This document shows positions 1,543 through 21,266 of a stretch of DNA of 33,110 nucleotides, in pieces. Made by a program: the position numbers and the translations under genes. The stretch's first letter is position 1. Each line of letters starts with the position of its first letter. The DNA is from Actinobacteria bacterium 21-64-8 (GTDB lineage Bacteria; Pseudomonadota; Alphaproteobacteria; Sphingomonadales; Sphingomonadaceae): the NCBI GenBank assembly GCA_903970225.1, contig CAJCHR010000475.1:1-33110 (forward strand). Direction: 5' to 3'. Below the pieces are notes generated by a model. The model saw only the letters and a list, made by a program, of their open reading frames with translations, had not been told where the DNA came from and did no database searches.

Positions 1543-1571
1543 CCTCCGACAGCCAGCACCCTGCGTTCGGC

Positions 1572-2554: not shown

Positions 2555-2572
2555 CCTGGCCGGGCAGCGCGA

Positions 2573-4137: not shown

Positions 4138-5037
4138 TCAGCTGCCGCCGGACCAGCGGCGCTCGAATTCCCAGACATCCTCGAAGCCAACCATCGAGCA
4201 GAACGTCTTGAAATCGAAGATGCTTCCGTCGCTCGCGTCGCCGATGCCCTCGTCGCGCAGCCGGATCAGCGCAGTCTCGACCGCACTCGCCGCCGTCAGC
4301 GCAGTCAGCGACGGGAAGATCGCGAAGCGGAAGCCGATCTCGCCGAGCTCCCGGGCCGAGCGGATCGGGGTGAGCCCGCCGTTCGCCATGTTCGCCATCA
4401 CCGGAAGGTCGAACCGCGCGCAGACGGTGCGCATCTCTTCCTCGCTTTCGAGCGCCTCGGGAAACAGCACGTCGGCGCCCGCTTTGGCATAAGCCTCGAG
4501 GCGGCGCAGCGTGCCATCGATCCCTTCGCTCTGGCGGGCATCGGTCCGCGCGATGACGACGATGCCGTCCTCGCTCCGGGCCCCGCCTTTGCGTGCCTCG
4601 ACAGCAACCTTGATCTTCGCCGCCATGTCTTCGACCGGGATAAGCCGCTTGAACGGCGTGTGACCGCACTTCTTGGGGAATTCCTGGTCCTCGAGCTGGA
4701 TCGCGGCGGCGCCCGCATCCTCATAGCCGCGGACCGTGTGGCGTACGTTCAGCAAGCCGCCGAAGCCGGTGTCCGCGTCGGCGATGACGGCGCCGTCCGA
4801 CACGCGGACGAGCACGGCGATCCGTTCGCGCATTTCAGTGTAGGTCACCAGGCCCGCGTCCGGCATCCCAAACGCCGAGGCCGTCATCCAGTATCCCGTT
4901 CCATAGACGAATTCGAAGCCCAGGCGATTTGCGACCAGCGCCGCGATCATGTCGTGGATGCCGGGTGCAACCACGATATCGCCCGTCTCCGCCGTGCTCG
5001 CCAGCGCCTCGCGAAGCGTCCGCTTACCTTGCCGCAT
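4138..5037 (-). CDS. Isocitrate lyase/PEP mutase family lyase (2,3-dimethylmalate or 2-methylisocitrate lyase-like)
   Basis: A 299-residue TIM-barrel enzyme of the isocitrate lyase/PEP mutase superfamily. Visible marks are the metal-binding ADADTGFGG (86-94), the catalytic loop KKCGH (122-126) after QLEDQEFP, and ARTDARQSEG. The KKCGH Cys is typical of lyases that cleave 2-hydroxy diacids to pyruvate or glyoxylate plus a carboxylate, unlike the phosphonate mutases. It lies 16 bp after the LeuD-type gene, so it should act on the product of that hydratase. Dimethylmalate lyase next to dimethylmaleate hydratase in Eubacterium barkeri nicotinate fermentation is the closest known parallel; methylisocitrate lyase or oxaloacetate decarboxylase are alternatives. 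Family call is firm, substrate open. Confidence 0.88.
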   Translation of the reverse strand: MRQGKRTLREALASTAETGDIVVAPGIHDMIAALVANRLGFEFVYGTGYWMTASAFGMPDAGLVTYTEMRERIAVLVRVSDGAVIADADTGFGGLLNVRHTVRGYEDAGAAAIQLEDQEFPKKCGHTPFKRLIPVEDMAAKIKVAVEARKGGARSEDGIVVIARTDARQSEGIDGTLRRLEAYAKAGADVLFPEALESEEEMRTVCARFDLPVMANMANGGLTPIRSARELGEIGFRFAIFPSLTALTAASAVETALIRLRDEGIGDASDGSIFDFKTFCSMVGFEDVWEFERRWSGGS

Positions 5038-5053
5038 CAGTTATTCCTTGTTG

Positions 5054-5671
5054 TCATGAGCGCCCGTGGGGGTGCCGCCAGGGCAACCGCCGGTCGAGCG
5101 TCGCCTCGATCGCCTCAATCGACGCGAGATGTTCCAGCGTCCGGCCGATCGGGTCGGTGCCGCGCAGCAGATCTCCTCGCGCCTGCGGGGAGATGTCGAA
5201 CGCGAACTGAGCATTGCCGACCGTCACCCGCTGATCAACCAGCGAGACGCGCATCGGCACGCCCGCTTCTGCCGCGATCGCGCAGCGCTCGACCGCGTCG
5301 CGCGGCAGCCGCACCGGCAGCAGCGCGTTGTTGAGCGCGTTGTTGTAGAAAATGTCACCAAAGCTCGGCGCGACCACGCAGACGATGCCGGCGTCGAGCA
5401 GCGCCCAGGCGGCATGCTCGCGGCTCGATCCGCAGCCGAAATTGTCGCCAGCGACCAGGATCGCCGCGTTCCGATAGCGCTGCTCGTCGAGCACGAAGCC
5501 CGCAACCGAATGGCCATCGGCATCGTGGCGTCGATCGTAGAACAGGCCGCGACCCAGTCCGGTCCGGGTGACCGTGCGCAGGAACTGGCCGGGTACGATC
5601 TGGTCGGTGTCGAGATTGTCCTCGATCAGCGGCACTGCCAGTCCCTCGACCACCGTGACCGCGCGACTCAC
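5054..5671 (-). CDS. leuD: Aconitase-superfamily hydratase small subunit (LeuD-like)
   Basis: A 205-residue protein with the LeuD swivelling domain: [15 protein letters not shown] near the N-terminus and the substrate-binding loop [17 protein letters not shown], then [17 protein letters not shown]. It pairs with the LeuC-type subunit to hydrate or dehydrate a diacid. The GTG start overlaps the LeuC stop by four bases (GTGA), implying translational coupling. There is no leuA or leuB nearby and the next gene is a C-C lyase, so a catabolic role (hydration of an alkylmaleate such as citraconate or dimethylmaleate) fits better than leucine synthesis. The symbol denotes the family only. Confidence 0.88.
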
Positions 5672-7074
5672 AGCACGGCCCTCACGTCCGAGATATGGCC
5701 GGTGATCGCGGCTTGGGCGACCATCGCCGGGCTCATCAAGTGAGTGCGCCCACCGCGCCCCTGGCGTCCCTCGAAGTTGCGATTGGAGGTCGAGGCGCAG
5801 CGCTGGCCGGGCGCGAGCCGGTCGGGGTTCATGCCCAGGCACATGGAGCACCCAGGCTCGCGCCATTCGAAGCCGGCAGAGCGGAAGACCTCGTCGAGCC
5901 CCTCCGCCTCCGCCGCGCGGCGCACCGCGCTCGAACCCGGCACGACGAGCGCGCGCACTCCGGTCGCGACGGTTCGCCCGGCAATGATCGCGGCCGCGGC
6001 GCGCAAGTCCTCGAGGCGGCCGTTCGTGCACGAACCGATGAAGGCGACGTCGATCGGCGTACCCGCGATCGGCGCCCCGGGCGCGAGATCCATGTAGGCA
6101 AGCGCGCGGCGCGCAGCCTCGCGCTTGTCCGGGTCCGCGATCTGCTCGGGATCGGGAACCGCTCGGTCGATTGCAATGGATTGCGCGGGGCTCGTGCCCC
6201 AGCTCACCATCGGCGCCAGACCCTCGACGTGGATCGTCTCGATCCGGTCGAAGCGGGCGGAGGGATCGCTCGGGAGCGTGCGCCAGAAGCGCACCGCCTC
6301 GGTCCATTCGCTCACGGAGAGGTCGGCGCGTTCGCGCAAGTACGCGAACGTCGTCTCGTCGGGCGCGACGAGGCCCGCTTTAGCGCCGCCCTCGATCGAC
6401 ATGTTGCACAAGGTCATGCGGCCCGCCATCGACAGCGCACGGACCGCGGCCCCGGTGTATTCGATGACGTGGTTGGTGGCACCGCCCGCGCCGATCTGCG
6501 CGATCATCGCGAGCGCCAGGTCCTTGGCGGACGTGCCCGGTCCCGGCGTTCCTGCGAACCGGACCAGCAGATTGTGCGATTTCACCTGGCGCAGCGTCTG
6601 CGTGGCCAGCACATGCTCGACCTCCGAAGTGCCGATGCCATGGGCCAGCGCGCCGAACGCGCCATGCGTCGAGGTATGGCTGTCGCCGCAGACGATCACA
6701 ATGCCCGGCAGCGTCCGCCCGAGTTCCGGCGCAACGACGTGGACGATGCCGTTGTCGGGATCGCCCATGCCGAAGCATGTGATGCCGTGCCGCGCGGAGT
6801 TGCGTACCATCGTCTCGATCTGCACGCGCGCGGCCGAGTCCCGGATCGCGGCAGTGCCTGCGGCCTGGCCCTCGGTCGGCGTCGAGTGGTCGGTCATCGC
6901 CAGCGTTTGCGCCGGCGCTCGAACCGGGCGGTTTGTCTCATCGAGACCCGCGAACGCCTGCGGCGAGGCCACCTCGTGCAGCAGGTGAAGGTCGACGGCT
7001 AACAGCGACGGCTCGCCAGGAGCAACCTCGACGGCGTGCAGATCCCACACCTTGTCGTACAATGTCTGAGCCAC
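5668..7074 (-). CDS. leuC: Aconitase-superfamily hydratase large subunit (LeuC-like)
   Basis: A 468-residue 4Fe-4S dehydratase large subunit of normal LeuC length. Cluster ligands are the Cys in [13 protein letters not shown] (about 349) and the pair in [11 protein letters not shown] (about 409 and 412). Other family marks are [24 protein letters not shown] and [11 protein letters not shown] chose the GTG at 7074, which has a GGGA ribosome site 6-9 bases upstream and gives the usual [11 protein letters not shown]-terminus; an ATG at 7095 has no such site. It heads a three-gene operon with the LeuD-like subunit and the lyase, divergent from hyuA, with an ACATATGT site between. Catabolic hydration of a substituted maleate is inferred from that context. 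Confidence 0.9.
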
Positions 7075-7157
7075 GTGATTCCCGCAACTGCGCATAACGA
7101 TATGCCCGTCAGCCGCGCAATCGCGCTAAAAATTCCGGGCTGTCAATCGAGCGCAAC

Positions 7158-7165
7158 ACATATGT
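7158..7165. promoter_or_regulatory. ACATATGT palindrome, site D (putative operator)
   Basis: A perfect 8-bp ACATATGT lies in the 180-bp gap between leuC-like and hyuA, about 85-90 bp from both starts, so it could control both directions. The context CACATATGTAAA closely matches site E upstream of the LLM gene at 11312. Confidence 0.6.
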
Positions 7166-7254
7166 AAACACTCGATAAATTCCGATTACGTATCGCGCAT
7201 TCTCGTGATCATGGCGGGAATTCGAAGCCGTGATGTAAGGATCGGAAACAGGTA

Positions 7255-9312
7255 ATGAGCTATCGGCTGGGTGTGGACGTGGGCGGAACCTTTACCGACC
7301 TGTTGCTGCTGCGCGAGGAAGACGGCGCCTTCTGGCGGCACAAGACGCCCTCGACCCCGCACGACAGCTCCGAAGGCATTCTCGCCGGGTTCGGCGTGAT
7401 CTGCGCCAAGGCCGGAATCGCCCCGGGCGATATCGACGTCCTGCTGCACGGAACCACGGTCGCCACCAATGCCATCCTCGAGGGTAAGGGCGCACGCGTC
7501 GGGCTGATCGTCACCGAGGGATACCGCCAGATCATGCAGATCGCGCGCAGCTTCGTGCCGGGCGGGCTGGCCGGATGGATCGTCTGGCCCAAGCCCGAGC
7601 CCCTCGCCGCGCTAGAGGATACGTTCGAGATCCAGGGCCGGATGAGCGCGCACGGCGAAGAGCTGCGTCCGATCGACGATGCGAACATCCGCGCCGCGCT
7701 CGAGGCGGTGAAGGCGCAAGGGGTCGAGGCGCTGACCGTCAGCCTGATGAACGCCTACCTCAACGGCAGCCACGAAACGCGCGTCGGCGAGCTTGCGGCC
7801 GAGATCCTGCCCGGCGTGCCGGTCTCGCTCAGCCACGAAGTCCTGCCCGAGATGCAGGAGTACGAGCGCACGCTGACCACCGTCGCCAACGCCGCGGTGC
7901 GCCCGGTCGTCGGCCGCTATGTGCGCAGCCTGCGCGCAAAGCTGCGCGAGACCGGGATGAATGGGCGGCTGGCGCTGCTGCGTTCGGACGGCGGCCTGAT
8001 GTCGTCCGAGGCTTCCGAAGAACATCCGGTGGCGCTGCTGATGTCGGGCCCGGCGGGCGGCGTAACCGGCGCGCTATGGGTCGGCCGGAACGCGGGCATC
8101 CGCAACATCCTGACGCTCGATGTCGGCGGCACATCGACCGACGTCGCGCTGATCGAGAACCTGGAGGCGCGCCGCGTGCGCACCACGGAGGTCGGCAGTC
8201 TCTCGGTTCGCGCCTCGGCGCTCGACGTGAAGACCGTGGGCGCCGGCGGCGGCTCGATCGCCTATGTGCCCGAACTCACCGGCGCGCTGCGTGTCGGACC
8301 GCGCTCGGCCGGCGCGGTGCCGGGCCCGGTGGCTTACGGCAAGGGCGGAACCGAGCCGACCGTCACCGATGCCAACGTGGTGCTCGGCTACCTGCCCGAG
8401 GCGCTTCTTGGCGGCACCTTCAATCTTGACCGCAGGAGCGCAGAAGCCGCGGTACAGACGATCGCCGACAAGCTCGGCATCGGTCTCTACCAAGCCGCGC
8501 GCGGCATCATCGACATCGTCAACGAGAACATGTTCGGCGCGCTGCGCATGATCTCGGTTCAGCAGGGCTACGATCCGCGCGACTTCGCGGTGATGGGCTT
8601 TGGCGGCGCCGGGCCGCTGCATGTCAACGCGGTTGCACGCCTGATGGGAAGCTGGCCGGCGATCAGCCCGGTCAGCCCCGGCGTGCTTTGCGCGCTCGGC
8701 GATGCGACGACGCAGATGCGCACCGAGATCGCCCGATCGTTCTCGCGCCACGCGGCGCAGACGTCCGCCGCGGAGCTGCGCCGCCAGCTCGAGGAGATGG
8801 CCGCGACGACGCGGGCCGAGCTCGAGAACGAGGGGATCGCGCCCGAAGAGATCACGGTCACGTTCGAAGTGGACGTGCGGTATTCGGGTCAGGCCTTCGA
8901 GGTGCCGATCGCAGTGACGCTCGAGCAGATCGACGGTGCGGGCGTCGACGGCCTCACCGCCCGCTTCGACGACGAGCACCGCCGCCTGTTCACCTTCAAC
9001 ATGGCGAGCCCGCACGAAATCGTGAACCTGCGCGCGGTCGCAGTCGGCCAGCCGCTCGACTTGCCGGCTGCCGCGTTGCCGCAGGGCGACGGCGACCCGT
9101 CGGCCGCCAAGCTGCGCGACCACGAACTGTGGATTGACGGCGAGCTTCGCCGCGCGGTCATCTACGACCGTGCCAAGCTGCGCGCGGGCGACCTGATCCC
9201 AGGTCCGGCCGTCATCATCGAGATGGATTCGACCACGCTGGTCGAAGCCGATTGCTCGGGTGTGGTCGATGCCGTCGGCAACATCCTGATCAACCCCACC
9301 AATCCGGCCTGA
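7255..9312 (+). CDS. hyuA: Hydantoinase/oxoprolinase family protein, subunit A (HyuA-like)
   Basis: A 685-residue ATP-binding subunit of the HyuA/5-oxoprolinase family. It has the N-terminal actin-like ATPase motif GVDVGGTFTD (6-15), GTTVATNAILEGKGA, the second phosphate motif LDVGGTSTDVAL, and SGPAGGVTGA. With HyuB it uses ATP to activate the carbonyl of a lactam, hydantoin or imide for hydrolysis, or to carboxylate a ketone in the acetone carboxylase branch. No third acetone-carboxylase-type subunit is present, which favours hydrolysis. It heads the long plus-strand series, 10 bp before hyuB, and is divergent from the leuC-like gene with operator site D between. The ATG has a weak ribosome site (acagg) just upstream. 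Confidence 0.92.
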   Translation: MSYRLGVDVGGTFTDLLLLREEDGAFWRHKTPSTPHDSSEGILAGFGVICAKAGIAPGDIDVLLHGTTVATNAILEGKGARVGLIVTEGYRQIMQIARSFVPGGLAGWIVWPKPEPLAALEDTFEIQGRMSAHGEELRPIDDANIRAALEAVKAQGVEALTVSLMNAYLNGSHETRVGELAAEILPGVPVSLSHEVLPEMQEYERTLTTVANAAVRPVVGRYVRSLRAKLRETGMNGRLALLRSDGGLMSSEASEEHPVALLMSGPAGGVTGALWVGRNAGIRNILTLDVGGTSTDVALIENLEARRVRTTEVGSLSVRASALDVKTVGAGGGSIAYVPELTGALRVGPRSAGAVPGPVAYGKGGTEPTVTDANVVLGYLPEALLGGTFNLDRRSAEAAVQTIADKLGIGLYQAARGIIDIVNENMFGALRMISVQQGYDPRDFAVMGFGGAGPLHVNAVARLMGSWPAISPVSPGVLCALGDATTQMRTEIARSFSRHAAQTSAAELRRQLEEMAATTRAELENEGIAPEEITVTFEVDVRYSGQAFEVPIAVTLEQIDGAGVDGLTARFDDEHRRLFTFNMASPHEIVNLRAVAVGQPLDLPAAALPQGDGDPSAAKLRDHELWIDGELRRAVIYDRAKLRAGDLIPGPAVIIEMDSTTLVEADCSGVVDAVGNILINPTNPA

Positions 9313-9322
9313 GGACAGCGCC

Positions 9323-11194
9323 ATGCCCGCAACGATCGTCCAGACCAACTCCGCGCCATTCCCGCACGCCGCCATCGATCCGGTCACGCTCGAGGTGATC
9401 GAGAACGCGCTCCGCAACGCGCGCATTGAAATGGACACGACGCTCGTGCGCACCGCGATGTCTCCCGGCATCCGCGAGCAGGGCGACGCCTTCCCGCTGA
9501 TCGCCGATCACAAAGGCCGGATGATCGTCGGCCAGTTCGGCTCCTACATCGGGCCATTCCTCGAAGGCTATGACGGTTCGGTCGAGGACGGCGACATGAT
9601 CATGCTGTCCGATCCCTATTCGGTCGGCGGTGCGATCAGCCACTGCAACGACTGGCTCGTGCTGCTGCCCGTGTTCAAGGACGGCCGGCTGATCGCCTAC
9701 ACCTCGATGTTCGGACATATGTCGGACATCGGCGGCAAGGTGCCCGGCTCGATGCCGATCGATGCGACGACGATCTTCCAGGAAGGCGTGCGCATCCCTC
9801 CGGTGAAGATCTTCCGCAACGGCATCGAGAACACCGACCTGCTGGACCTGATCATGCATCAGGTCCGCACGCCCGAGTGGTGCCGCGCCGACCTCAATGC
9901 GCTGATCGCCGCTTGCCGGGTCGCCGCGCGGCGCGTGATCGAGATCGCCGGGCGCTTCGGCGACGACGTGTTCGTCACCGCCACCGGAGAGCTGCTCGCG
10001 CGCAACCATCGCGCCATGAAGCACCTGATCGAGACTTCGGTCTCCGAGGAGAAGGTCAGCTTCCACGACTACATCTGCGACGACGGCGTCGGCTTCGGGC
10101 CCTACAAGCTCCAGTGCACCATGTGGCGCGAGGACGGGCGCGTGATCCTCGATTTCGAGGGTACCGATCCGCAGAGTCCCGCGTCGATCAACTTCTTCCT
10201 CAACGAGAACATGATGAAGATGTTCTTCGGCATCTACATGATCATGGTGTTCGATCCGCAGATCCTGTTCAACGACGGGTTCTATGACCTGATCGACGTG
10301 CGCATCCCCGAAGGCTCGCTGCTGAAGCCCAGGTTCCCGGCCGCGCTCTCGGGCCGCACGCATGCGCTGGGGCGGATCTTCGATCTGCTCGGCGCACTGC
10401 TCGGCCAGAAAACGCCTCAGTTCCTCAACGGGGCCGGGTTCTCCTCGAGCCCCCACCTGTTCTACGCGGGCACCGACCGCAAGGGCGAGTGGTTTCAGCT
10501 GTTCCAGATCGGCTTCGGCGGCATACCCGGCCGCCCGCTGGGCGACGGGCCCGACGGGCACTCGCTGTGGCCCGGGTTCACCAACGTCCCCAACGAGTTC
10601 CTCGAGCGGTACTTCCCGCTCGTGATCGAGCGCTACGAAACGGTCGCAGATTCGGGCGGCGCCGGGCTCCACCGCGGCGGCAACGGCATCAACACGACGT
10701 ACCGGTTCCTCGAGAAAGGGATGATCGCGATCCACGACGATCGCTGGTTCGTGCCGCCTTGGGGGGTGAACGGTGGCAAGCCGGGTGCCCGCGCGCGCAA
10801 GATCCTGGAAAAGCCGGATGGCACGCGGATCGATATCGCCAACAAGCTCGAGGAGTTCGAGGTCGAAGCGGACGACCAGCTTCACTTCATCACCTGGGGC
10901 GGCGGGGGCTGGGGTGACCCGTTGGAGCGGGCACCCGAACTCGTGCTCAAGGAAGTGCGACAGGGTCTCGTCACCGTCGCCGGCGCGCGTGCTTACGGTG
11001 TGGTCATCGATGCCAGGTCAGCGCTCGACGAAACCGCGACCGCGGCGCTTCGGGACGAGATGCGAGCCGAACCCTCGCGCGAGACGAACAAAGTATTCGA
11101 TTTCGGGCCCGACATGGACACCTTGCGCGCGCAGTGCGAGGCGCAGACCGGCCTCCCTGCCCCAACCGCACCACGATGGGCGCACATCGCCTGA
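9323..11194 (+). CDS. hyuB: Hydantoinase/oxoprolinase family protein, subunit B (HyuB-like)
   Basis: A 623-residue HyuB-family subunit, beginning with the typical IDPVTLEVIENALRNARIEMD and carrying SYIGPFLEGYDG, LSDPYSVGGAISHCND and GHMSDIGGKVPGS. The C-terminal part has the HyuB glycine-rich GGNGI and WGGGGWGDPLERAPELV, then about 90 residues continuing past that motif. It is the partner of HyuA for ATP-dependent opening of a cyclic amide. The 10-bp spacing and equal orientation indicate one transcript. An exact ACATATGT at 9715-9722 inside this gene encodes G-H-M-S and is probably coincidental. Confidence 0.92.
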   Translation: MPATIVQTNSAPFPHAAIDPVTLEVIENALRNARIEMDTTLVRTAMSPGIREQGDAFPLIADHKGRMIVGQFGSYIGPFLEGYDGSVEDGDMIMLSDPYSVGGAISHCNDWLVLLPVFKDGRLIAYTSMFGHMSDIGGKVPGSMPIDATTIFQEGVRIPPVKIFRNGIENTDLLDLIMHQVRTPEWCRADLNALIAACRVAARRVIEIAGRFGDDVFVTATGELLARNHRAMKHLIETSVSEEKVSFHDYICDDGVGFGPYKLQCTMWREDGRVILDFEGTDPQSPASINFFLNENMMKMFFGIYMIMVFDPQILFNDGFYDLIDVRIPEGSLLKPRFPAALSGRTHALGRIFDLLGALLGQKTPQFLNGAGFSSSPHLFYAGTDRKGEWFQLFQIGFGGIPGRPLGDGPDGHSLWPGFTNVPNEFLERYFPLVIERYETVADSGGAGLHRGGNGINTTYRFLEKGMIAIHDDRWFVPPWGVNGGKPGARARKILEKPDGTRIDIANKLEEFEVEADDQLHFITWGGGGWGDPLERAPELVLKEVRQGLVTVAGARAYGVVIDARSALDETATAALRDEMRAEPSRETNKVFDFGPDMDTLRAQCEAQTGLPAPTAPRWAHIA

Positions 11195-11311: not shown

Positions 11312-12460
11312 ATGAAGTTCGGCATTTGCCTGACCCCGCACTGGAGCGGAAAGACCTCGCAGGCCGAAGTCTACGACCAGATGATCTCCCGCATGGTGCT
11401 GGCCGATGAGCTGGGCTTCTACTCGGCGTGGACCACTGAGCATCACTTCGCCAACGATCCCGAATACCTGCCGTTCGGCTGGGAGGGCGGGCGGTTTCGC
11501 GCCTATGATCTGGCGCCCGATCCGCTGACGCTGCTGACCTACGGCGCGGCGCGCACCAAGAACCTGCGCCTGGGCACGGGCGTGTTGCTCGTCAATTACG
11601 AGAACCCGATGCGGCTGGCGGAGAAGGCCGCGATGCTCGACGTGATGAGCGGTGGCCGCCTCGAGTTGGGCCTCGGCCGCGGTGCGCAGGCTCCGCATTC
11701 GGATGTCTACGGGGTTCCCGCCGGCGAGCAAGCCGGGCAGGAGCGTTACCGCGAAGCGCTCGAGATCATCATGCTCGCCTGGTCGGGCAAGCGCTTCGCG
11801 TATCGCGGCAAGCACTTCAACTTCGGCGAGCTCGAAGTGGTGCCGACGCCGCTCCAGCGCCCGATCGTGCCGCTCTATACGTCCACCGGCAACATCGACA
11901 ACTTCCTGGAAGCCGCGCGCATCGGGCTGTCGCACGTTTCGACCACCGGTGCCTGGGGCCCGGCGGGCATTGCCCAGTACAACGAGAAGCAGGAAAAGTT
12001 CGCCGCCGCCGCGCGCGAGGCCGGGCGCGATCCCGATGCCCTGCTCTATCCGGTCCACCTGTTCATGTACGTGGCGCAGAGCGACCAGGAGGCGGAGGAA
12101 CGCGCCGAAGAGCACATGCTCAACTTCACCGCGCACGTGGAAGCGCACTACCAGCGCCAGCGACACGGCGGCTTCCTGCTGGGTTCGGGTGCGCTGACCG
12201 GACTCGACGCGACACTCGACGAGGTCAAGGCCATGAACCGCAAGGCCTCGGTCACCAACCTCATCGGCAGTCCGAAGACCGTCACCGAGAAGCTCGAGGC
12301 GTTCCTCGCGCAAGTCCCTTCGGTCAACTACATCCATGGTATCACTGATGCCGGAACGCCGCCACCGGCGTTCGTCGCGAAGTCGATGGAACTGTTCGCC
12401 ACGCAGGTTGCGCCCAGGTTCGCCGGCTTCCGCGACACCGCGGTGTCCGAGGCGGCGTGA
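11312..12460 (+). CDS. LLM-class flavin-dependent monooxygenase (first paralogue)
   Basis: A 382-residue bacterial-luciferase-like TIM-barrel protein. It starts MKFGICLTPHW and contains TEHHFANDPEYLPF, LRLGTGVLLVNYENPMRLAEKAAMLDVMSGGRLELGLGRG and PLYTSTG, all typical of group C two-component monooxygenases that use reduced FMN and O2. The role would be oxygenation (ring opening, N-dealkylation or Baeyer-Villiger type) of the cluster's substrate. It closely resembles the protein at 20100 and heads a sub-block preceded by operator site E. No flavin reductase gene is visible nearby, so reduced flavin must come from elsewhere. The ATG has a good ribosome site (cggaga). Confidence 0.88.
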   Translation: MKFGICLTPHWSGKTSQAEVYDQMISRMVLADELGFYSAWTTEHHFANDPEYLPFGWEGGRFRAYDLAPDPLTLLTYGAARTKNLRLGTGVLLVNYENPMRLAEKAAMLDVMSGGRLELGLGRGAQAPHSDVYGVPAGEQAGQERYREALEIIMLAWSGKRFAYRGKHFNFGELEVVPTPLQRPIVPLYTSTGNIDNFLEAARIGLSHVSTTGAWGPAGIAQYNEKQEKFAAAAREAGRDPDALLYPVHLFMYVAQSDQEAEERAEEHMLNFTAHVEAHYQRQRHGGFLLGSGALTGLDATLDEVKAMNRKASVTNLIGSPKTVTEKLEAFLAQVPSVNYIHGITDAGTPPPAFVAKSMELFATQVAPRFAGFRDTAVSEAA

Positions 12461-12676: not shown

Positions 12677-13675
12677 GTGATCGCGCCGCGCAAGATGCCC
12701 GTGCGGCTCGTGACCGGCTTTCTCGGCGCGGGGAAGACGACGCTGGTTAACCGGGTGCTGCGCGATGCCTCGGTCCGCTACGCGGTGATCGTCAACGAGT
12801 TCGGCGAGATCGGCATCGACGGCGGATTGATCGCCGAGGAGGGCGCGGACACGCTGGAACTCTCCAACGGCTGCGTGTGCTGCTCGCTGAAGGGCGACCT
12901 GGTCGAGGCGCTCGAGCGTTTCGCCGATACCGACCGCTTCGACGAGATCCTGATCGAGACCACCGGGATCGCGGCGCCGCTCCCGCTCGCGCGCGACTTC
13001 GCGTCGGATCATGCGCTGATCAACGCGTTCCGGCTCGACGGCATCGTCACCGTGATCGACGCGCGCACGCTGTTCGCGCGGATCGAGGATACGCCCGAAA
13101 CGCTCGAGCAGATCCTCGTCGCCGATCACTTCGTGCTCAACCGCATCGAGCAGGCGCCGGTGCCCCTAGCCGAGATCAAGGCCCGGCTTGCCCGGCTCAA
13201 TCCGTTCGCGGACTTCTACAACGGGCTCGGGGAAGCGGCCGCGGCCCTGTTCGGCGCGGATCACGCGGCGCTGGCGCCCGAGCGGCTCGAACGCTTCGCT
13301 GGCGAACCGGCTGTGCACGACCACGAGCACGGCCACCACGATGGCCACCAACATGACCACGGGCACGCCGGCGCCGAGCCCTGGACCAGCGCATCGCTGA
13401 CTCTCGACCGTCCACTCGATGCGATGGCGCTGACACACTGGCTCGACGCCGCCTTGGCCGATCACGCCAACCCGATCCTGCGCGCAAAGGGCGTGTTCGC
13501 GATCGCCGGCGAGGACCGCCGGATCGTCATGCAGAGCGTCGGCGGCGCGCTGCACGGGGAACCGGGACGACCGTGGCAGCCCGGTGAAGCACGGATCAGC
13601 AAGGTGGTTCTGATCGGGCGGCGGCTCAACGCAGCCGCGCTCAAGGCCGGGTTCGAGGCAGCCACGGCGGCATAG
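12677..13675 (+). CDS. COG0523 (CobW/YjiA/Nha3-type) G3E GTPase metallochaperone
   Basis: A 332-residue G3E-family GTPase. The P-loop GFLGAGKT is at 14-21, the metal-binding GCVCC at about 65-69, and a His-rich loop (alternating H with D, E and G, about 213-231) precedes the C-terminal CobW domain (IRAKGVF-like LRAKGVFAI). The usual NKxD guanine motif appears as NRIE. Members load zinc, cobalt or iron into client enzymes or help under metal limitation. The next gene, 28 bp on, is a metal-dependent cyclase-type hydrolase, the likely client. A GTG at 12677 gives full length; an ATG at 12695 is possible but neither has a strong ribosome site. Confidence 0.88.
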   Translation: MIAPRKMPVRLVTGFLGAGKTTLVNRVLRDASVRYAVIVNEFGEIGIDGGLIAEEGADTLELSNGCVCCSLKGDLVEALERFADTDRFDEILIETTGIAAPLPLARDFASDHALINAFRLDGIVTVIDARTLFARIEDTPETLEQILVADHFVLNRIEQAPVPLAEIKARLARLNPFADFYNGLGEAAAALFGADHAALAPERLERFAGEPAVHDHEHGHHDGHQHDHGHAGAEPWTSASLTLDRPLDAMALTHWLDAALADHANPILRAKGVFAIAGEDRRIVMQSVGGALHGEPGRPWQPGEARISKVVLIGRRLNAAALKAGFEAATAA

Positions 13676-13703: not shown

Positions 13704-14633
13704 ATGACGATTCGAACAGCCGACAATATCACGATGACGCAGGCCGAGTTCCATGCGCTCACCGAGAAGCTCAGCAACTGGGGCAAGTGGGGCGCCGACG
13801 ACAAGCTCGGCACGCTCAATTATCTGACCGACGAGCGGCGCGCCGCGGCGGGCAAGCTGGTCACCGACGGCACCGTCGTCAGCTGCGCGAACGACATCAC
13901 CAGCGACGCGCGCATCGACACACCGCAGCCGCCGCTCCACATTCCGTTCTGGAACCGGATGAAGGATTTCGGCGTCGCGGGCGAGTCGCTGACGATCCAG
14001 CCGCACGGCTGGTTCACCACCCACCTCGATTCGCTGAGCCACCTCAACTACCAGGGCAAGACCTACAACGGTCACGACGTCGATCCCTATGCGACGGGCG
14101 ACCAGACCATCAACTCGATCATGGCCGGCAAGGACGGCATCGTCGGTCGCGGCGTGCTGATCGATCTTCCCGCGCTGAACGAGAAGGACTGGCTCGATCC
14201 CGGCGAGGCGGCGACGATGGACGACATCGAAAAGGCGCTCGCCGCGCAGAACACCGAGATCCTGCCGGGCGATATCCTGTACTTCTACACCGGCCGCTGG
14301 GCGCGTGAGGCCGCTTTGGGCGTGATCCCGGCTTCGGCAGGCTTGGCCGGCGTCAGCATCCACTGCGCCGAATGGGTCCACGAGAACCAGATCTCGTCGA
14401 TGGTGTGCGATGCCGGCATGGACCCGCAGCCGCCCGAAGTGGAGGCGATCCGTATCCCCTGGCACATCATCACGCTCGTCTCGATGGGGATGATGATCAC
14501 CGACAACGCCAACATGGAGCAGCTGGCCGCGACCTGCCGCGCCAAGGGCCGCTACGAGTTCATGACCGCTCTCGCACCGCTGCGGCTGCCCAAGGCGAAC
14601 TCGTCGCCGATCAATCCGCTCGCGATATTCTGA
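13704..14633 (+). CDS. Cyclase family (kynurenine formamidase/isatin hydrolase-like) metal-dependent hydrolase
   Basis: A 309-residue protein of the cyclase superfamily. The metal site is HGWFTTHLDSLSH (101-113), giving His101, His107 and Asp109 with a further His113, matching the family's HxGTHxDxxxH. Further on come GRGVLIDLP and LPGDILYFYTGRW, as in relatives that hydrolyse amides or cyclic imides and lactams using Mn or Zn. Relatives include kynurenine formamidase and isatin hydrolase. It follows a COG0523 metallochaperone by 28 bp and precedes an NtaA-type monooxygenase by 9 bp, so all three are likely co-expressed. A role opening or trimming an oxidised N-heterocycle is inferred. Confidence 0.85.
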   Translation: MTIRTADNITMTQAEFHALTEKLSNWGKWGADDKLGTLNYLTDERRAAAGKLVTDGTVVSCANDITSDARIDTPQPPLHIPFWNRMKDFGVAGESLTIQPHGWFTTHLDSLSHLNYQGKTYNGHDVDPYATGDQTINSIMAGKDGIVGRGVLIDLPALNEKDWLDPGEAATMDDIEKALAAQNTEILPGDILYFYTGRWAREAALGVIPASAGLAGVSIHCAEWVHENQISSMVCDAGMDPQPPEVEAIRIPWHIITLVSMGMMITDNANMEQLAATCRAKGRYEFMTALAPLRLPKANSSPINPLAIF

Positions 14634-14642: not shown

Positions 14643-15977
14643 GTGGGTCTTTCACGCACCATGGCCATGGCCGCGGACATCTCCTTTGCGCATTCGTCCT
14701 ATGCGTGGCGGGTGCCGGGTGCGTGGAAGGGCTACGACTACTACGGCGCGGACCTTTATGAAGACCTCGCGAGGATCGCCTCGCGAGGTGTCATGGACAT
14801 GCTGTTCTTCGGTGACGCCGCAGAGACGCCGGAAGCCTACGGCGGCTCGCATCACGCGGCGGTCGCTGCCGGCATGCAGTGGCCCAAGCATGACGTGATG
14901 CCGTTCATCCCGATGATGGCCAAAGCGGCGCCGGGCATCAGCTTCGGGCTCACCATGTCGACGACCTATCACCACCCGTTCTACGTGGCGCGGCTCTACA
15001 ACGCACTCGACCACGTGACCGGCGGCAGGATCGCGTGGAACGCGGTGACCTCGGCCTACAAGAACGAGGCCGCGAACTGGGGCTTCTCGCCGATGATGGC
15101 CCACGCCGATCGCTATGAGCGCGCGCATGAGCATCTGACCGTGGTCAAGAAGCTGTGGGACAGCGTCGAGCGCGACGCGATCATCATGGATCACGAGACC
15201 GGCATCTTCGCCGATGCCGACAAGGTCCACCGCATCGACCACGCGGGCAAGTACTTCACGCTGCCCGGCCCGCTGCCGGTCATGCCCTCGCCCCAGCATC
15301 ACCCGGTGGTCCTGCAGGCCGGACAGTCGCCGCCGGGCATGGATCTGTGCGCGACGCACGCCGACCTGCAGTTTGCCGTTCGCAACACCATCGAGGGGAT
15401 GCGCGAGCATCGCCAGGCGCTCGACCACCTGCTCGTCGGCAAGGGGCGCGATCCGCGCGACGTCGGCATTCTTTGGGCACTGCGCGTGTGCCCGAACGAG
15501 AGCGCCAGCGAGGCGGCGGAAAAGGACGAGGCGTGGCGCGCCAGCCTGCCCCCCGGGACCGGCCTAATGCTGTTCTCTTCGGTCTATGGCGTCGATCTCT
15601 CAAAGGTCGATCCCGGCATGTCGGTCAGCGAGGCGATCGAATCGGTGCGCGATCAGGTTACCCACACCGGCGTGTTCAACGAACTCGTCAAGAACGCCGC
15701 CCCCGGCCAGACGCTCGACGCCTTTGGGCTCGGTGCGCTGACCGACGAAGTCTGCATTGCCGGCACGCCCAGCCAGATCGCCGACCAGCTCGAGGAGATC
15801 CATGAGGCGACCGGACAGTGCGGCGGGATCATCATCTCCGCGCGCGGCCGTCCGGTCCCGGGCTTCCTGCGTGACTTCGTCGAGCATGCCGTGCCCGAGA
15901 TGCAGCGGCGCGGGCTCACCAAGAAGCGATACGCGGGGCCGACGCTGCGCCACAACCTGGGATTGACCAAATCATGA
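14643..15977 (+). CDS. NtaA/SnaA/DszA-type FMN-dependent monooxygenase (LLM class)
   Basis: A 444-residue luciferase-like monooxygenase of the NtaA/DszA/SnaA subfamily, longer than the other two LLM proteins here. Marks include WRVPGAWKGYDYYGADLYEDLARIA-type N-terminus, the segment FFGDAAETPE, GLTMSTTYHHPFYVARLYNALDH, GRIAWNAVTS and VVLQAGQSPPG. These enzymes use FMNH2 from a separate reductase to attack sulfones, aminopolycarboxylates or heterocycles. A GTG at 14643 gives the longest form; ATGs at 14661 and 14667 are alternatives and may be the true start. It lies 9 bp after the cyclase and its stop overlaps the next gene (ATGA). Confidence 0.9.
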   Translation: MGLSRTMAMAADISFAHSSYAWRVPGAWKGYDYYGADLYEDLARIASRGVMDMLFFGDAAETPEAYGGSHHAAVAAGMQWPKHDVMPFIPMMAKAAPGISFGLTMSTTYHHPFYVARLYNALDHVTGGRIAWNAVTSAYKNEAANWGFSPMMAHADRYERAHEHLTVVKKLWDSVERDAIIMDHETGIFADADKVHRIDHAGKYFTLPGPLPVMPSPQHHPVVLQAGQSPPGMDLCATHADLQFAVRNTIEGMREHRQALDHLLVGKGRDPRDVGILWALRVCPNESASEAAEKDEAWRASLPPGTGLMLFSSVYGVDLSKVDPGMSVSEAIESVRDQVTHTGVFNELVKNAAPGQTLDAFGLGALTDEVCIAGTPSQIADQLEEIHEATGQCGGIIISARGRPVPGFLRDFVEHAVPEMQRRGLTKKRYAGPTLRHNLGLTKS

Positions 15978-16267
15978 GCCTCGTCCGCATCTACCAGCTC
16001 ACCGCCGCGGCGGGCCAGCGAGAGACGCTGCAAGCCGCCCTCGCCGACCTCGGCGCGGCGCTGGCCACCGTGCCCGGATCGAGCGGATCCGAGACGCTGG
16101 AAGCGACAGACAGCCCGGGCACTTTCGCGTTCATCGAACGCTGGGCGAGCGACGAGGATCACGCCAACTCGGGGGCCGCGCTGCCCAAGGCGTTGTTCGG
16201 CGCGATCATGCAGTCGATCGAGGGCAAGCCCGGACTTGTTGCCTATCGGCCTCTCGGCGCGAACTGA
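15974..16267 (+). CDS. ABM-domain (antibiotic biosynthesis monooxygenase-like) small protein
   Basis: A 97-residue ferredoxin-like alpha+beta protein of the ABM/YgiN dimeric barrel type: it opens with MSLVRIYQLTAAAGQ, then helices, and the typical FAFIERWASDEDHANS. Members act as cofactor-free monooxygenases on quinols or anthrones, or merely as small binding proteins. It overlaps the NtaA-type gene by four bases (ATGA), so the two are translationally coupled and may act on consecutive or the same intermediates. Catalytic residues cannot be assigned with confidence. Confidence 0.78.
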   Translation: MSLVRIYQLTAAAGQRETLQAALADLGAALATVPGSSGSETLEATDSPGTFAFIERWASDEDHANSGAALPKALFGAIMQSIEGKPGLVAYRPLGAN

Positions 16268-16291: not shown

Positions 16292-16798
16292 TTGCAAGTC
16301 GCCGCCGACATCCGTGACCTGCCCCGCATCGACGGCGCGCGCGTCGCTATCCTGCAGTCGGGCTGGTTCCCCGAATATGTCACGTCGCTCGCCGATCACG
16401 CCCGCGCCCTGCTCACGCGCCATGGCGCGATCGTCGAGGACCACGTCCTGCCCGGCAGCCTCGAGCTCTCTTTCGCGGCCGAACTGCTCTGCGCCGATTC
16501 CGCACGGGGGCGACCGGATGCGATCGTCTGCTTCGGTGTCATCGTAAAGGGCGACACGCTTCATTTCGAGATGATCGTCCAGGAATCGGCTCGAGCGCTC
16601 GGCGATGTGAGCCTGCGCTGGCGGGTCCCCGTGATCAACGAGATCATTCCCACGTCGACCATCGAGGATGCAGCCCTGCGCTGCGCCGACGATCAGTTCA
16701 ACAAGGGCATCGAAGCCGCCGCCGCCGCGATCCGGTGCATCGACTGGCGCGCCCGAACTTTCCCGGCCGCAGGCCACAACTCGGAGAAAGTCGCATGA
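16292..16798 (+). CDS. ribH: 6,7-dimethyl-8-ribityllumazine synthase paralogue (RibH-like)
   Basis: A 168-residue protein with lumazine synthase hallmarks: Trp25 in QSGWFPEY (position of the ring-stacking aromatic), PGSLEL (54-59), FGVIVKGDTLHFEMI with the catalytic His91, an Arg at 130 after PTSTIEDAAL, and NKGIEAA. Lumazine synthase joins 5-amino-6-ribitylaminouracil and dihydroxybutanone phosphate in riboflavin synthesis. The active-site pattern looks intact. No other riboflavin genes are nearby; instead it sits among flavin monooxygenase genes, so it may raise flavin supply or bind a related pyrimidine. It has a TTG start with AGGA nine bases upstream, is 24 bp after the ABM gene, and its stop overlaps the next start (ATGA). 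Confidence 0.87.
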   Translation: MQVAADIRDLPRIDGARVAILQSGWFPEYVTSLADHARALLTRHGAIVEDHVLPGSLELSFAAELLCADSARGRPDAIVCFGVIVKGDTLHFEMIVQESARALGDVSLRWRVPVINEIIPTSTIEDAALRCADDQFNKGIEAAAAAIRCIDWRARTFPAAGHNSEKVA

Positions 16799-18633
16799 TC
16801 GACCGCCGTGGACTGATGTCCGGTGCGACCACGCTCGCATTGCTTTCCGGGTACGCGCGCGCTGCCGCGCCGGCCGCGCGAGCGCCCGGCGCACCCGGGA
16901 GCGAAGGCGCCGCGCACACGGCTCCGGGCGGTCCCGTCGGCGGTTTGATGGACCGTCGGTATCTCTATACCGACGGGCACCGCGTGCACTATCGTCGGCG
17001 CGGCACCGGTGGTCCGCTGGTGATGCTGGCGGGTTTTCCGAACAGCTCGAGCTATGTCGACGCCCTGGCCGGCACGCTCGCCAGCGGCAGGACCGTGATC
17101 GCTCTCGACCTTCCGGGCACGGGCGAATCCTCACTGCTTGCCGCGAAGGCGCCGGTCATCGGCGATTATGCCGCGTGGCTGGACCAGGTGACCACGGGGC
17201 TCGGCATCGCGAAAATGGATCTCGTCGCCTTCGAGACCAGCGCGCCGATCGCGATCGCGTTCGCCCGCGCCCATCCGCAGCGCGTCCGCAGTCTCGTGCT
17301 GATCGAACCCCCGGTGCTGACCGATGCCGAGAAGGCCGAGCATATCGCGCAAGGCAGCGTACCGCTGATCCCCGACGCAGAGGGCAGCCACGTCACCAAG
17401 CAATGGGGCCGGCTGCGCGACAGCTACATTTTCGATCCTTGGTACAATCGCAGCATGGAGACGCGCATGGTGCGCGACCTGCCACCCGCGGACCGGCTCT
17501 ACACCGAATTCCTCGACGTCATGCGTGCCGGGCCGGGGTACGCGCTCGGGCTGCAAGCCGCGTGGCAGGACGACCGCATGGCACAGGCAGCCAGCATCCC
17601 GGGGCTGACGGTCCTCGCCTCGGCGAAGACCAACGGGCGCCTCGCCGGTAGCAACTTCCATACCTTGCCGATCGCCATGCATGACGATTTTGGCGCCATC
17701 GCCGCTCATCTGAACACGCTGGCGCTCGGCGGCGGGCTCGCTTCGCCACCGCCGCCGCCGCCGGTCTTGCCGGTGGCGGGAGAAGTTCGTCGCGATTACG
17801 TTCGGACCAGCGTTGGACAGATCCTGCTGCGCCGTACTGCAGCACGCAATCCTGGCAGCAAAAGGCTGCCCCTGTTCTCATTCCACGGATCGCTTTGGTC
17901 GGCGGCCGGAATGGAGCCCAAGCTGCTGTCCTTCGCCGAGGATCGCGAGGTGCTGGCGTTCGATATTCCCGGAGTCGGCGATTCACCGGCTATCGGCGGA
18001 TCGCCGGAGATGATCGAATTTGCCCGGGTCATCGTCGAGGCGATCGAGGTGCTCGAATTCGAGACGATCGATCTCGAGGGCGGCCACAGCGGCGCAATGA
18101 TCGCCGTCGACGTTGCGATCCTGCTGCGGGGCAAGGTGCGCCATCTGATCCTCAACGGCGTGACGATGTACACCGATGCGGAATTGGCCGACATGCTGCC
18201 GCATTACCTGAAGCCATTGCAGATCACCGATGACGGAGCGTTCCTCAACTGGTCCTGGTCTTTCCTGCGCGACATGTACCTGTGGTATCCATGGTACGAT
18301 CATCGCGGGAAAATGGCGCGATCCGACGCGCGCGTCCCCGGCCCCGACAGCCAGCACGCCAGCTTTTTTGATTTCCTCAAGGGTGGGCGGAGCTTCGCAC
18401 AGTATTACCACGCGGCGCTGACGTTCGCGACGGAGCGGCAGGTGCCGAAGATCAAGTGCAAGGTGCTGTTCTGCTGCGAGAGAAACGACACGCTGCTGGA
18501 CGAGACGGTCGCCGCCGCCAAGCTCTTGCCCGGCGCCAAATTCGTGTTCCTGCCCGACCGCAGTACGCCCGCCGGCCTTGTCGCGGCAAAGGAAAGCTAT
18601 TTTGCGTTCCTCGAAGACAGGCTGCCCAGCTGA
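16795..18633 (+). CDS. Tat-exported tandem alpha/beta-hydrolase protein with altered nucleophile elbows
   Basis: This 612-residue protein starts MIDRRGLMSGATTLALLSG, a likely twin-arginine signal with cleavage after an Ala-rich stretch near residue 25. Two alpha/beta hydrolase domains follow (about 50-310 and 335-612), joined by a proline-rich linker (SPPPPPPVLP, 317-326). Aligned without gaps to LxGxSxGG, domain 1 reads LVAFETSA, putting Glu147 at the nucleophile, and domain 2 reads LEGGHSGA, putting His431 there. Neither has the usual Ser, Asp or Cys. It could be a binding protein, a cofactor-independent enzyme, or a pseudoenzyme pair, located in the periplasm. It is the last gene of the series and overlaps the lumazine synthase stop by four bases. 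Confidence 0.83.
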   Translation: MIDRRGLMSGATTLALLSGYARAAAPAARAPGAPGSEGAAHTAPGGPVGGLMDRRYLYTDGHRVHYRRRGTGGPLVMLAGFPNSSSYVDALAGTLASGRTVIALDLPGTGESSLLAAKAPVIGDYAAWLDQVTTGLGIAKMDLVAFETSAPIAIAFARAHPQRVRSLVLIEPPVLTDAEKAEHIAQGSVPLIPDAEGSHVTKQWGRLRDSYIFDPWYNRSMETRMVRDLPPADRLYTEFLDVMRAGPGYALGLQAAWQDDRMAQAASIPGLTVLASAKTNGRLAGSNFHTLPIAMHDDFGAIAAHLNTLALGGGLASPPPPPPVLPVAGEVRRDYVRTSVGQILLRRTAARNPGSKRLPLFSFHGSLWSAAGMEPKLLSFAEDREVLAFDIPGVGDSPAIGGSPEMIEFARVIVEAIEVLEFETIDLEGGHSGAMIAVDVAILLRGKVRHLILNGVTMYTDAELADMLPHYLKPLQITDDGAFLNWSWSFLRDMYLWYPWYDHRGKMARSDARVPGPDSQHASFFDFLKGGRSFAQYYHAALTFATERQVPKIKCKVLFCCERNDTLLDETVAAAKLLPGAKFVFLPDRSTPAGLVAAKESYFAFLEDRLPS

Positions 18634-18788: not shown

Positions 18789-19598
18789 TCAAATCTCATC
18801 GAGGTCGCTTCGTGGCTGCTCACCATCGGCCAGTGAACGTTCGATGGCGGCGGCTGTCCGCAGAATGGCGGGTGCTAAAATCTCTTCGGCGGTGCTCATG
18901 TGCATCGCGCTTGTGAAGTACGACAGGATCACCACCGCGACCATCCGCTTGTCCTCGAACACCGGCGCGCCAATGGTAGAGGTTTTCCCCGGTGTCTGCG
19001 TGTATTGATTGCCGAACTTTGTCGCGTACCCTTGGGCGCGCACTTGGTCGAAGTACTTGCCAGATTCCATCAAGCTGGCATATTCGTCGCGCTCATACTG
19101 AGACGTTCCGCGCAAGTCGGCGAGAGTTCGCTCGCGCTCGTCTTCCGCGACAAAGGACAAGTAGCAGCGGCCCGGTGCCGTGCCCATGATCGGCACACTG
19201 TATCCCGGATGATAGAGATGAAACGTCATCGACGTCAGAGCGTGCGTCGAATCGCGTACCACCATATTCTGCCCGACGCGTGTCGTGATTGCGACCGGCC
19301 ACAGCTGCTGGCGCGTGAGTTCGACGATGTGCGGGTGCGCGGCCGCGACAAGCGCATCGTAATTCTGGAAGCCCTGCGACAGGCTGTGCACGAGCGCGGT
19401 GGGTCGATAACGCGGGCGCGACAATTCCCGCTCGATCAGCCCTTCGAACAGAAGGCTCTCGACGATGCGGCAAGTGGTGCCGTAAGGCAGGCTCGTCGTG
19501 CGCGAGATCTCGGTCATCGAAATCGGCGCGTGTTCGTTGATCGTACGCAGCACCTGAATGGCTCGACTGATCGAACGCACCGGAGCGTCATTTTTCAC
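18789..19598 (-). CDS. IclR-family transcriptional regulator
   Basis: A 269-residue regulator with an N-terminal winged helix (about 8-75: SISRAIQVLRTINEHAPISMTEISRTT-type, then PYGTTCRIVESLLFEGLIE) and a C-terminal IclR effector domain (IMGTAPGRCYLSF, GAPVFEDKRMVAVVILSYF). IclR proteins bind as dimers of dimers to palindromes and often respond to aromatic or organic acid ligands. I chose the GTG at 19598 because AGGAGG lies nine bases upstream; a longer frame from 19634 lacks this. It is the only regulator in the cluster, divergent from the LLM2 operon, and is the best candidate to control both arms. Whether it reads the ACATATGT sites is not shown by sequence. Confidence 0.9.
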   Translation of the reverse strand: MKNDAPVRSISRAIQVLRTINEHAPISMTEISRTTSLPYGTTCRIVESLLFEGLIERELSRPRYRPTALVHSLSQGFQNYDALVAAAHPHIVELTRQQLWPVAITTRVGQNMVVRDSTHALTSMTFHLYHPGYSVPIMGTAPGRCYLSFVAEDERERTLADLRGTSQYERDEYASLMESGKYFDQVRAQGYATKFGNQYTQTPGKTSTIGAPVFEDKRMVAVVILSYFTSAMHMSTAEEILAPAILRTAAAIERSLADGEQPRSDLDEI

Positions 19599-20099
19599 CG
19601 TAACACTCCTCCTATGTGATCGCGGGATAGTCATCGCGTCTCATGGAGATCAGCCAGACGGGGACTCCGTCTATTCGATCCAGATGGTGTCTCGAGCCCT
19701 GTCGAGCTCATAGCGATCACGCGCATGCCGTCTCAACGATCTAATATGGCACCTAAGCCGAGCGACACCACACGATATTAGCGCCTCTGCCCGCACAACG
19801 GACAAACCGCCAGAAAATCCGCTTCGGATCGTGCGCTGACACCGTCACCGGACCTCTCCATTTGATGTGCGTGACTCCTTCGATCCCAGCGCAGCGCATC
19901 ATCTCGGAACAATCGCCCGTCTAGCGGGCGATCTCGATAGCACGGTCGACGAGCTTCAAACTTCCATATTAACTCGGATGGCGACACGGCGACCGAAAAG
20001 CCCTGAGTTGTGAAACATCATAACCTCAGGTGATCGCCATCCCATAAGCAATCGGACCCCGGCTTCGCCAAGGACCGATTAGGCAATTTTGGAGCGTTT
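19599..20099. promoter_or_regulatory. 501-bp divergent promoter region (IclR / second operon)
   Basis: No gene is supported here. The region is less GC-rich than its neighbours and holds several inverted repeats: CTAATAT (19741-19747) with ATATTAG (19775-19781), a hairpin at 19912-19932, and CCTGAG (20002-20007) with CTCAGG (20025-20030). It should contain the promoters for the IclR gene and for the LLM2 operon, whose start has GGAG about six bases upstream. No exact ACATATGT is found. Confidence 0.6.
19912..19932. repeat. Perfect 8-bp inverted repeat in the divergent promoter
   Basis: ATCGCCCG, a 5-nt spacer TCTAG, then CGGGCGAT. It lies about 170 bp before the LLM2 gene and has no T-run, so it is more likely an operator or a structural element than a terminator. 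Confidence 0.4.
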
Positions 20100-21266
20100 A
20101 TGAAATTCGGCACCGTCTTGATTTCTCACTGGGACGGCGATCTCGTACCCGCCCAAGTCTATCAACGTATGCTCGATCGCATCGTTCTGGCTGAAGCTCT
20201 CGGCTACTATTCAGTCTATACGACTGAGCACCACTTCGCGAACGATCCTGAGTATTTGCCGTTCAACTGGGACAAGGCGCGCTTCAAGGCTTACGATCTT
20301 GCGCCGGACCCGATCACGCTACTGAGCTTCGCGGCAGCGCGTACATCCAAGATCCGGCTTGGCACCGGCGTCATCTTGATCAACTATGACAATCCTCTTC
20401 GCCTTGCCGAGCGCGCCGCAATGCTCGACGTGTTGAGCGGCGGCCGCCTGGAACTGGGCATCGGCCGCGGTGCGGGCCAGCCGCACTCCGGTGCGTTCGG
20501 CTGTCCGGCCGGCGAGGTAGAAGGTCAGGAGCGCTACCGCGAGGCGCTCGAGATCATCGTACGTGCATGGTCGGGCGAGCGTTTCGAATTCCACGGCAAG
20601 CACTTCAATTTCGGCCCGCTCCAGCTGGTGCCGACCCCGCTTCAACGGCCTTACCTGAATTCCGACAAGACCGGCGTTCCGCTCTACACATCGACCGGCA
20701 ACCCCGAAAATCTGGCCGAAGCGGCCGCGCAGTCGATCTCCCACATCACCGTGACCGGCGCCTGGGGCGACTCCGGGATCGAGAAGTACAACCAGCGGCA
20801 GGCAACGTTCGCCGAAGCATGCGGCGCGAACGGCATGGACCCGGCCGGCCATCTCTACCCGGGCCAGTTGTTCCAGTTCGTCGCGCCGAGCGACGCCGAG
20901 GCCGAAGACATGGCCGAGGAATACATCGCGAAATACCTTGCCCATGTCGAGGCGCACTACCAGCGCCAGCGTCGGGGTAGCAGCGTCCTGGGCGCACATC
21001 TCGGGAGCGAGGATGGGATCGAGCACGTGCGCGAACTCGCCCGCCAGTCGGTCGCGACCAATCTGGTCGGCAGTCCCAAGACCGTGGCCGAAAAGCTTGC
21101 CGCGTTCCTCGAGAAGATCCCGAGCATCAATTACCTGAGCGGCATCGCCGATGCGGGATCTCCGCCGCCGGCGTTCGTCGATCGCTCGCTCGAGCTGTTC
21201 GCCCGCGAGGTCGTGCCGCACTTCACAAAGCTGCGCGAACCGCAGCTTGAGACCACGGGCGCGTGA
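20100..21266 (+). CDS. LLM-class flavin-dependent monooxygenase (second paralogue)
   Basis: A 388-residue luciferase-like monooxygenase closely similar to the protein at 11312: both start MKFG and share TEHHFANDPEYLPF, the AYDLAPDP segment, GGRLELG-GRG, PLYTSTG and VEAHYQRQR. It differs by a short insertion (about six residues, LNSDKT region) before PLYTSTG. The same flavin-dependent oxygenation chemistry is expected, perhaps on a different ring position or substrate variant. It heads the right-arm operon, divergent from the IclR gene, with GGAG six bases before the ATG. Its stop overlaps the transporter start (GTGA). Again no flavin reductase is adjacent. Confidence 0.9.
   Translation: MKFGTVLISHWDGDLVPAQVYQRMLDRIVLAEALGYYSVYTTEHHFANDPEYLPFNWDKARFKAYDLAPDPITLLSFAAARTSKIRLGTGVILINYDNPLRLAERAAMLDVLSGGRLELGIGRGAGQPHSGAFGCPAGEVEGQERYREALEIIVRAWSGERFEFHGKHFNFGPLQLVPTPLQRPYLNSDKTGVPLYTSTGNPENLAEAAAQSISHITVTGAWGDSGIEKYNQRQATFAEACGANGMDPAGHLYPGQLFQFVAPSDAEAEDMAEEYIAKYLAHVEAHYQRQRRGSSVLGAHLGSEDGIEHVRELARQSVATNLVGSPKTVAEKLAAFLEKIPSINYLSGIADAGSPPPAFVDRSLELFAREVVPHFTKLREPQLETTGA

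Follow-up and report, generated by a model that had tools for sequence, protein, structure and literature searches.

A lumazine synthase-like gene (hereafter the RibH-like gene) lies in a compact run with the gene of an LLM class FMN-dependent monooxygenase, in a Sphingomonadaceae genome assembly that carries another ribH elsewhere. Judged by its sequence, the encoded protein belongs to a gamma-type group of lumazine synthases rather than to the resident lineage, an assignment that is new in this analysis. The reading that we prefer, and to which we give a probability of about one-half, is that the gene encodes a horizontally acquired, catalytically intact isoenzyme whose expression together with FMN-dependent monooxygenases would serve flavin supply. 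We regard the arrangement as unusual housekeeping and not as a new kind of system. In what follows, the window is the whole 33,110-nucleotide stretch of DNA that was analyzed.

The RibH-like gene and its neighbors

The reading frame in which the earlier note had recognized a RibH homologue (positions 16292..16798, + strand) is intact over its 168 codons, and the homology held up on closer analysis. The only Pfam domain found in the 168-aa protein, PF00885 (DMRL_synthase), scored 104.3 bits (6.6e-30) against a cut-off of 26.7, so the frame is not a chance open reading frame. Its start codon is likely a TTG, given that an AAGGA motif ends 7 nt upstream of it and that the start methionine of several relatives aligns there. 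The GC content of the gene (0.66, and 0.81 at third positions) is close to that of its neighbors and of the ribH gene on contig C176 of the same assembly. The NCBIfam equivalog model for lumazine synthase, TIGR00114, gave 83.8 bits against a cut-off of 84.6, a miss of 0.8 bit; we therefore file the protein in the PF00885 superfamily and infer its synthase activity. A type-II RibH2 identity was ruled out, since PRK12419 (NF009084), which we take to be the model of the type-II (RibH2, decameric) enzyme, scored 36.8 bits against a cut-off of 160.

The AlphaFold model of the protein (mean pLDDT, 94.2; pTM, 0.89) has the lumazine synthase fold, with Brucella RibH1 as the first Foldseek match (2o6h; TM, 0.79/0.90; rmsd, 1.8). 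Of the 50 listed PDB matches, 49 carry titles of lumazine synthases or their engineered derivatives; the remaining one, a designed particle chain, was matched by sequence as well. The active-site pattern that had been reported as intact, W25, H91, and R130, is indeed present, and E58, T89, and K138 are kept as well; these six positions have catalytic or substrate-binding roles, known chiefly from work on the Bacillus subtilis enzyme. Columns were counted as conserved if the same residue occurred in at least 90% of each of two sets, 50 core gamma-type proteins and 31 of the alphaproteobacterial type; the window protein keeps 24 of the 25 such columns, including E58, T89, H91, R130, and K138. 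W25 falls at the aromatic (stacking) position of the alignment, which we read as the position of W22 in Brucella RibH2. Two sites that are conserved elsewhere differ, namely, the basic residue before W25 (K/R24), which is a glycine, and P60, which is a serine. The core gamma group by itself has 65 conserved columns; 15 of these differ in the window protein, and 16, 19, and 23 differ in three other early-branching sequences. These residues and the predicted fold point to a catalytically intact lumazine synthase that is probably active.

The gene is the fifth of six closely spaced genes on the + strand. The run begins with a CobW-type GTPase gene (12677..13675; PF02492 and PF07683) and continues with genes for a cyclase-family hydrolase (13704..14633; PF04199), an LLM class FMN-dependent monooxygenase of the NtaA/DmoA family (LLM2; 14643..15977; TIGR03860, 373 bits against a cut-off of 279.7), an ABM-domain protein (15974..16267; PF03992), the RibH-like protein, and a hydrolase (16795..18633; PF00561 and PF12697). 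The intervals between successive genes are 28, 9, -4, 24, and -4 nt, so that the ABM gene overlaps the monooxygenase gene by 4 nt and the end of the RibH-like gene shares 4 nt (ATGA) with the start of the hydrolase gene. The position after an FMN-dependent monooxygenase and an ABM protein and the close linkage to a catabolic hydrolase, both described earlier, were thus borne out, with the refinements that the hydrolase consists of two fused alpha/beta-hydrolase domains and that its catabolic label is an inference from the neighborhood. Its N terminus, read by eye, is Tat-like, and the protein may be exported. Both of its halves match one single hydrolase gene in an Antarctobacter plasmid and so look like each other's relatives.

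Two further LLM-family genes (PF00296) lie on the + strand of the window at 11312..12460 and 20100..21266, in agreement with the three monooxygenases counted previously, and a gene for an IclR-type regulator (18789..19634, - strand; PF01614 and PF09339) is divergent from the latter. The surrounding cluster also encodes an FAD-binding-4 oxidase, transporters, hydantoinase-type subunits, and a LeuC/LeuD pair with a methylisocitrate/dimethylmalate-lyase-like protein. Within positions 4138-11194, the lyase-like protein, LeuD, and LeuC are encoded on the - strand and hydantoinase A/B on the + strand, the latter being caprolactamase-like at scores far below the cut-off; that this region serves a route through a dialkylmaleate-type acid is speculation. 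The best PDB match of LLM2 is DszA (5tlc). Riboflavin lyase also matches LLM2, and a riboflavin-degradation cluster was considered for this reason and rejected, because the scores of DszA, DMS monooxygenase, and others are higher, with riboflavin lyase 77 bits below DszA. With DszA as its nearest relative among solved structures, LLM2 gives no pointer to a flavin- or pteridine-like substrate. Ten further places in the genome match the NtaA-type monooxygenase at an E value of 1e-3, five of them at 1e-43 or better.

Origin of the window copy

A PF00885 search of the source assembly (4.09 Mb in 525 contigs; 96.7% complete, 5.5% contamination) found two genes, the window copy and the one on C176. 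The latter directly follows a gene for RibBA (DHBP synthase plus GTP cyclohydrolase II), and riboflavin synthase is encoded on contig C247, the only place where PF00677 was found. The check for a second ribH that the earlier note had called for was therefore positive, and for this assembly we ruled out that the window copy is the only ribH, on the presumption that the window contig (C475) is correctly binned. If C475 were misbinned, the claim of an extra copy would fall. In tetranucleotide composition, each half of the window was closest to a stretch of this same assembly (r of 0.78 and 0.72), with rivals close behind: relatives of the same genus or family reached 0.71 and 0.72, and one gammaproteobacterial locus reached 0.72 for the first half. 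Base composition thus fits the assignment of C475 to this genome but does not prove it.

The two RibH proteins share 31% identity over 126 aa and fall into separate groups in trees, the C176 protein grouping with RibH of the same family, which rules out a recent duplication of the resident gene. The gene had been called a lumazine synthase paralogue; the homology stands, but xenologue is the better term, because the nearest relatives of the window copy are not the resident gene.

Those relatives were sought in samples of genomes from the genus, order, class, and phylum, which overlap. None of the 195 genomes of the genus sample other than the window's own passed an E value of 1e-19. Some match was present in 385 of 396 genomes of the order sample, of which the closest, the window's own aside, was 40% identical (E value, 5e-19). 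No close orthologue of the window copy was thus found in the 195 genus and 396 order genomes sampled. Two others passed 1e-19 among 385 genomes of the class: one (in G752) lies within an operon read from its open reading frames as nusB-ribH-ribE, and one (in G544) is 49% identical and is the sole match of its genome at 1e-8. The phylum sample (398 genomes) added nothing at 1e-21. A scan of GTDB genomes with two motifs derived from the window and G544 proteins, one of which was required, so that relatives with neither are missed, yielded 56 loci, nearly all of them titled Gammaproteobacteria, Pseudomonadales, or K189A clade, and 52 of the 56 at 45 to 56% identity to the window protein. A scan based on the window protein alone returned no relatives. 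A plasmid search with P0001 gave 68 records, all below 60% identity and at most 39% among the 40 matches listed, and no close relative of the RibH-like protein was found in viral contigs.

In a tree of 61 sequences, the window protein lies on the gamma side of a long central branch (support, 100/100), outside the core gamma group (98/90), and is joined with the long-branched L056 (96/83), a join that may be false. Its branch length is 1.15, relative to a median of 0.18. An AU test did not reject a tree in which the window protein was held with the alphaproteobacterial sequences (P = 0.098); this value would fit the deepest position on the gamma-type side, and hence we name no donor.

The gamma-type relatives mostly occupy a housekeeping neighborhood. 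When the RibH frame was recovered, as it was in 47 of the 53 loci tried (L046 to L098), smpB lay within two genes of ribH in 36 loci, and one or more of six typical neighbors occurred in 41; one representative of each neighbor was identified, as SmpB, a sodium symporter (SNF), a RatA-like protein (Polyketide_cyc), RnfH, BamE, and a RecN-like protein (SMC_N). Whole-genome PF00885 searches for 50 of the 56 loci found one gene in 38 genomes and two or more in 12. The single-gene set includes assemblies titled as one chromosome (G1133, with locus L061, and G1165, with locus L096), whereas many of its other members are metagenome-assembled genomes that may be incomplete, so that a second PF00885 gene may have been missed in some. 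The window copy differs from these nearest relatives, which are single copies in most of the genomes searched, in lying outside the core group on a long branch.

The earlier note had proposed looking for RibH in the same position in orthologous clusters, and no recurrence has been seen so far. Not one of the 56 loci, some of which are only a few kilobases long, matched LLM2, the ABM protein, the cyclase, or the fused hydrolase (tblastn; E value, 1e-6), and a conserved ribH-LLM operon accordingly has no support there; at L061, partial matches to LLM1 and LLM3 (32 to 36% over ~150 aa) lie ~6 kb away. Leaving the window's genome aside, LLM2 had its best match in the genus sample in G1202 (44% identity), and the 31.8-kb contig that carries this match has none to RibH. 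Plasmid records matched, at the limits set, LLM2 (17 records), the hydrolase (12), and the cyclase (3); in the four of those plasmid regions that were inspected, no lumazine synthase is annotated in the gene table, which is incomplete. A ribH-LLM arrangement seen once cannot show that the linkage is under selection.

This single occurrence also suits a neutral passenger, that is, an active but redundant lumazine synthase, brought in with the cluster or inserted into it, with no link to flavin demand. The ribBA-ribH pair elsewhere in the assembly and the fact that no other rib gene came along with the RibH-like gene would agree with such a history. On the other hand, the intact frame, the conservation of nearly all columns shared by both branches, the close or overlapping gene ends within a compact run, and a third-position GC content like that of the neighbors suggest that the gene is maintained. 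We consider a passenger gene somewhat unlikely, but it is a serious rival to flavin supply.

Possible roles in the degradation cluster

In the flavin supply reading, a lumazine synthase from a lineage other than the resident one would have been acquired horizontally and kept in an accessory degradation cluster. Once the cluster was switched on, the three LLM enzymes and the FAD-binding-4 oxidase would be made, which would bring a greater need for flavin, and the RibH-like enzyme, made from the same predicted message as the LLM enzymes, would at that point provide extra lumazine, and through it riboflavin and FMN. The earlier note had offered flavin supply for the three monooxygenases as one explanation; it fits the data and has a published precedent, and we grade it as plausible.

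The precedent is the lux-rib operons of Photobacterium, in which, according to two reports, ribE-B-H-A lie beside the luciferase genes and the rib genes are linked to FMNH2 supply (PMC8272222, PMC6409340). As in those operons, ribH in the window shares one compact run, predicted to be co-transcribed, with an FMN-dependent luciferase-family enzyme (the Photobacterium enzyme uses FMNH2). The reports name several rib genes and the flavin reductase LuxG in the lux-rib operons, whereas ribH stands alone in the window, in a catabolic-looking setting, and no other rib gene or flavin reductase was found among the window genes scanned.

Several findings count against flavin supply. RibH is the only rib function found in the window, although the limiting enzyme is generally taken to be GTP cyclohydrolase. 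Neither a PF01613 flavin reductase nor an FMN riboswitch was found in the window or anywhere else in the genome; a partner reductase of the LLM enzymes must come from a different family or be absent from the assembled contigs. The narrow miss of TIGR00114, the changes at K/R24 and P60, and the long branch weigh in the same direction, and the branch would also fit a changed function. If flavin supply is nevertheless the selective reason, the run would be the catabolic equivalent of a lux-rib operon, placing cofactor synthesis and cofactor-using enzymes under one switch, built from a foreign isoenzyme and not from a duplicate, and it would be suited to asking whether lumazine synthase alone raises flavin output.

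Alternatively, the foreign scaffold may have been recruited into the degradation pathway, either to act on an intermediate of the pyrimidine or carbonyl type or to serve an LLM monooxygenase as a partner that carries flavin; we judge such recruitment unlikely overall. For the first form, a repurposed enzyme that would, for example, condense or cleave a pyrimidine-like or carbonyl intermediate, the long branch, the two substitutions, and the TIGR00114 score could be cited, as could the position of the gene between oxygenase and hydrolase genes. However, the catalytic residues checked are kept, relatives at ~50% identity are the sole PF00885 gene in most genomes searched, and the companion LLM, nearest to DszA, gives no hint of a substrate resembling a flavin or pteridine. 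The earlier idea of action on a pyrimidine-like intermediate finds nothing in the sequence in its favor, with all but one of the columns conserved in both branches being kept. A changed function is possible, with no positive evidence in its favor, and we consider this form quite improbable; were it true, an ancient scaffold would have taken on new chemistry.

The second form, in which the protein would bind riboflavin or FMN and buffer it or hand it to the LLM enzymes, draws on the position of Trp25 at the aromatic stacking site, on the existence of a solved lumazine synthase with bound riboflavin (Schizosaccharomyces pombe, PDB 1kyv), and on the lack of a PF01613 reductase in the genome. Against this, the tryptophan is also present in the gamma-type relatives shown, including those at L061 and L096, each the sole PF00885 gene of its genome, so Trp25 does not single out the window copy. 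We know of no flavin handover by a lumazine synthase and regard this form as highly improbable.

Additional lumazine synthases in other genomes

Pairs of lumazine synthases have been described before. According to one report, Brucella has two lumazine synthases of different types, RibH1 and RibH2, both active in vivo, and a W22A mutation abolishes the function of RibH2 (PMC2828483). Brucella, like the source of the window, is an alphaproteobacterium, and in both the two lumazine synthases differ in type. In the same report, Brucella RibH2 is a decameric type II enzyme with a predicted FMN riboswitch, in contrast to the window protein, with its low PRK12419 score and no riboswitch found. Mycobacterium smegmatis likewise has a second, partly redundant lumazine synthase gene, and its RibH1/RibH2 pair is active in vivo according to that study (PMC12240317); the comparison with it covers the gene pair. 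Maintained extra copies of rib genes are discussed in an Aeromonas study (PMC10012899). In the open-licence literature searched, no paper joined lumazine synthase with a luciferase-like monooxygenase, with a degradation gene cluster, or, as a paralog in a gene cluster, with a flavin-dependent monooxygenase, and wider searches of that literature gave no title on this theme among those listed.

Among the 12 gamma-type genomes with two or more PF00885 genes, one second gene lies in a canonical rib operon (L134), and six form one separate branch (L123, L125, L126, L127, L130, and L133), all from gammaproteobacterial genomes; those at L120, L121, L128, L131, and L136 had no tblastn match with the queries used. 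The catalytic-histidine region of the second protein at L123 and L126 reads GGIYRHEF, as in RibH2. The genome with the canonical operon also has, at positions 10001-10465 of L097, a stand-alone RibH-like gene of the broader group that is 40% identical to the window copy and precedes a short-chain dehydrogenase gene; it is thus a second extra copy, in another setting. In an nrdR-ribD-nusB-thiL stretch at L076 (positions 984-3944), ribD and nusB lie too close together for ribE, ribBA, or ribH to fit between them, and a gamma-type ribH adjoins smpB ~7 kb away, so that the ribH gene has apparently moved.
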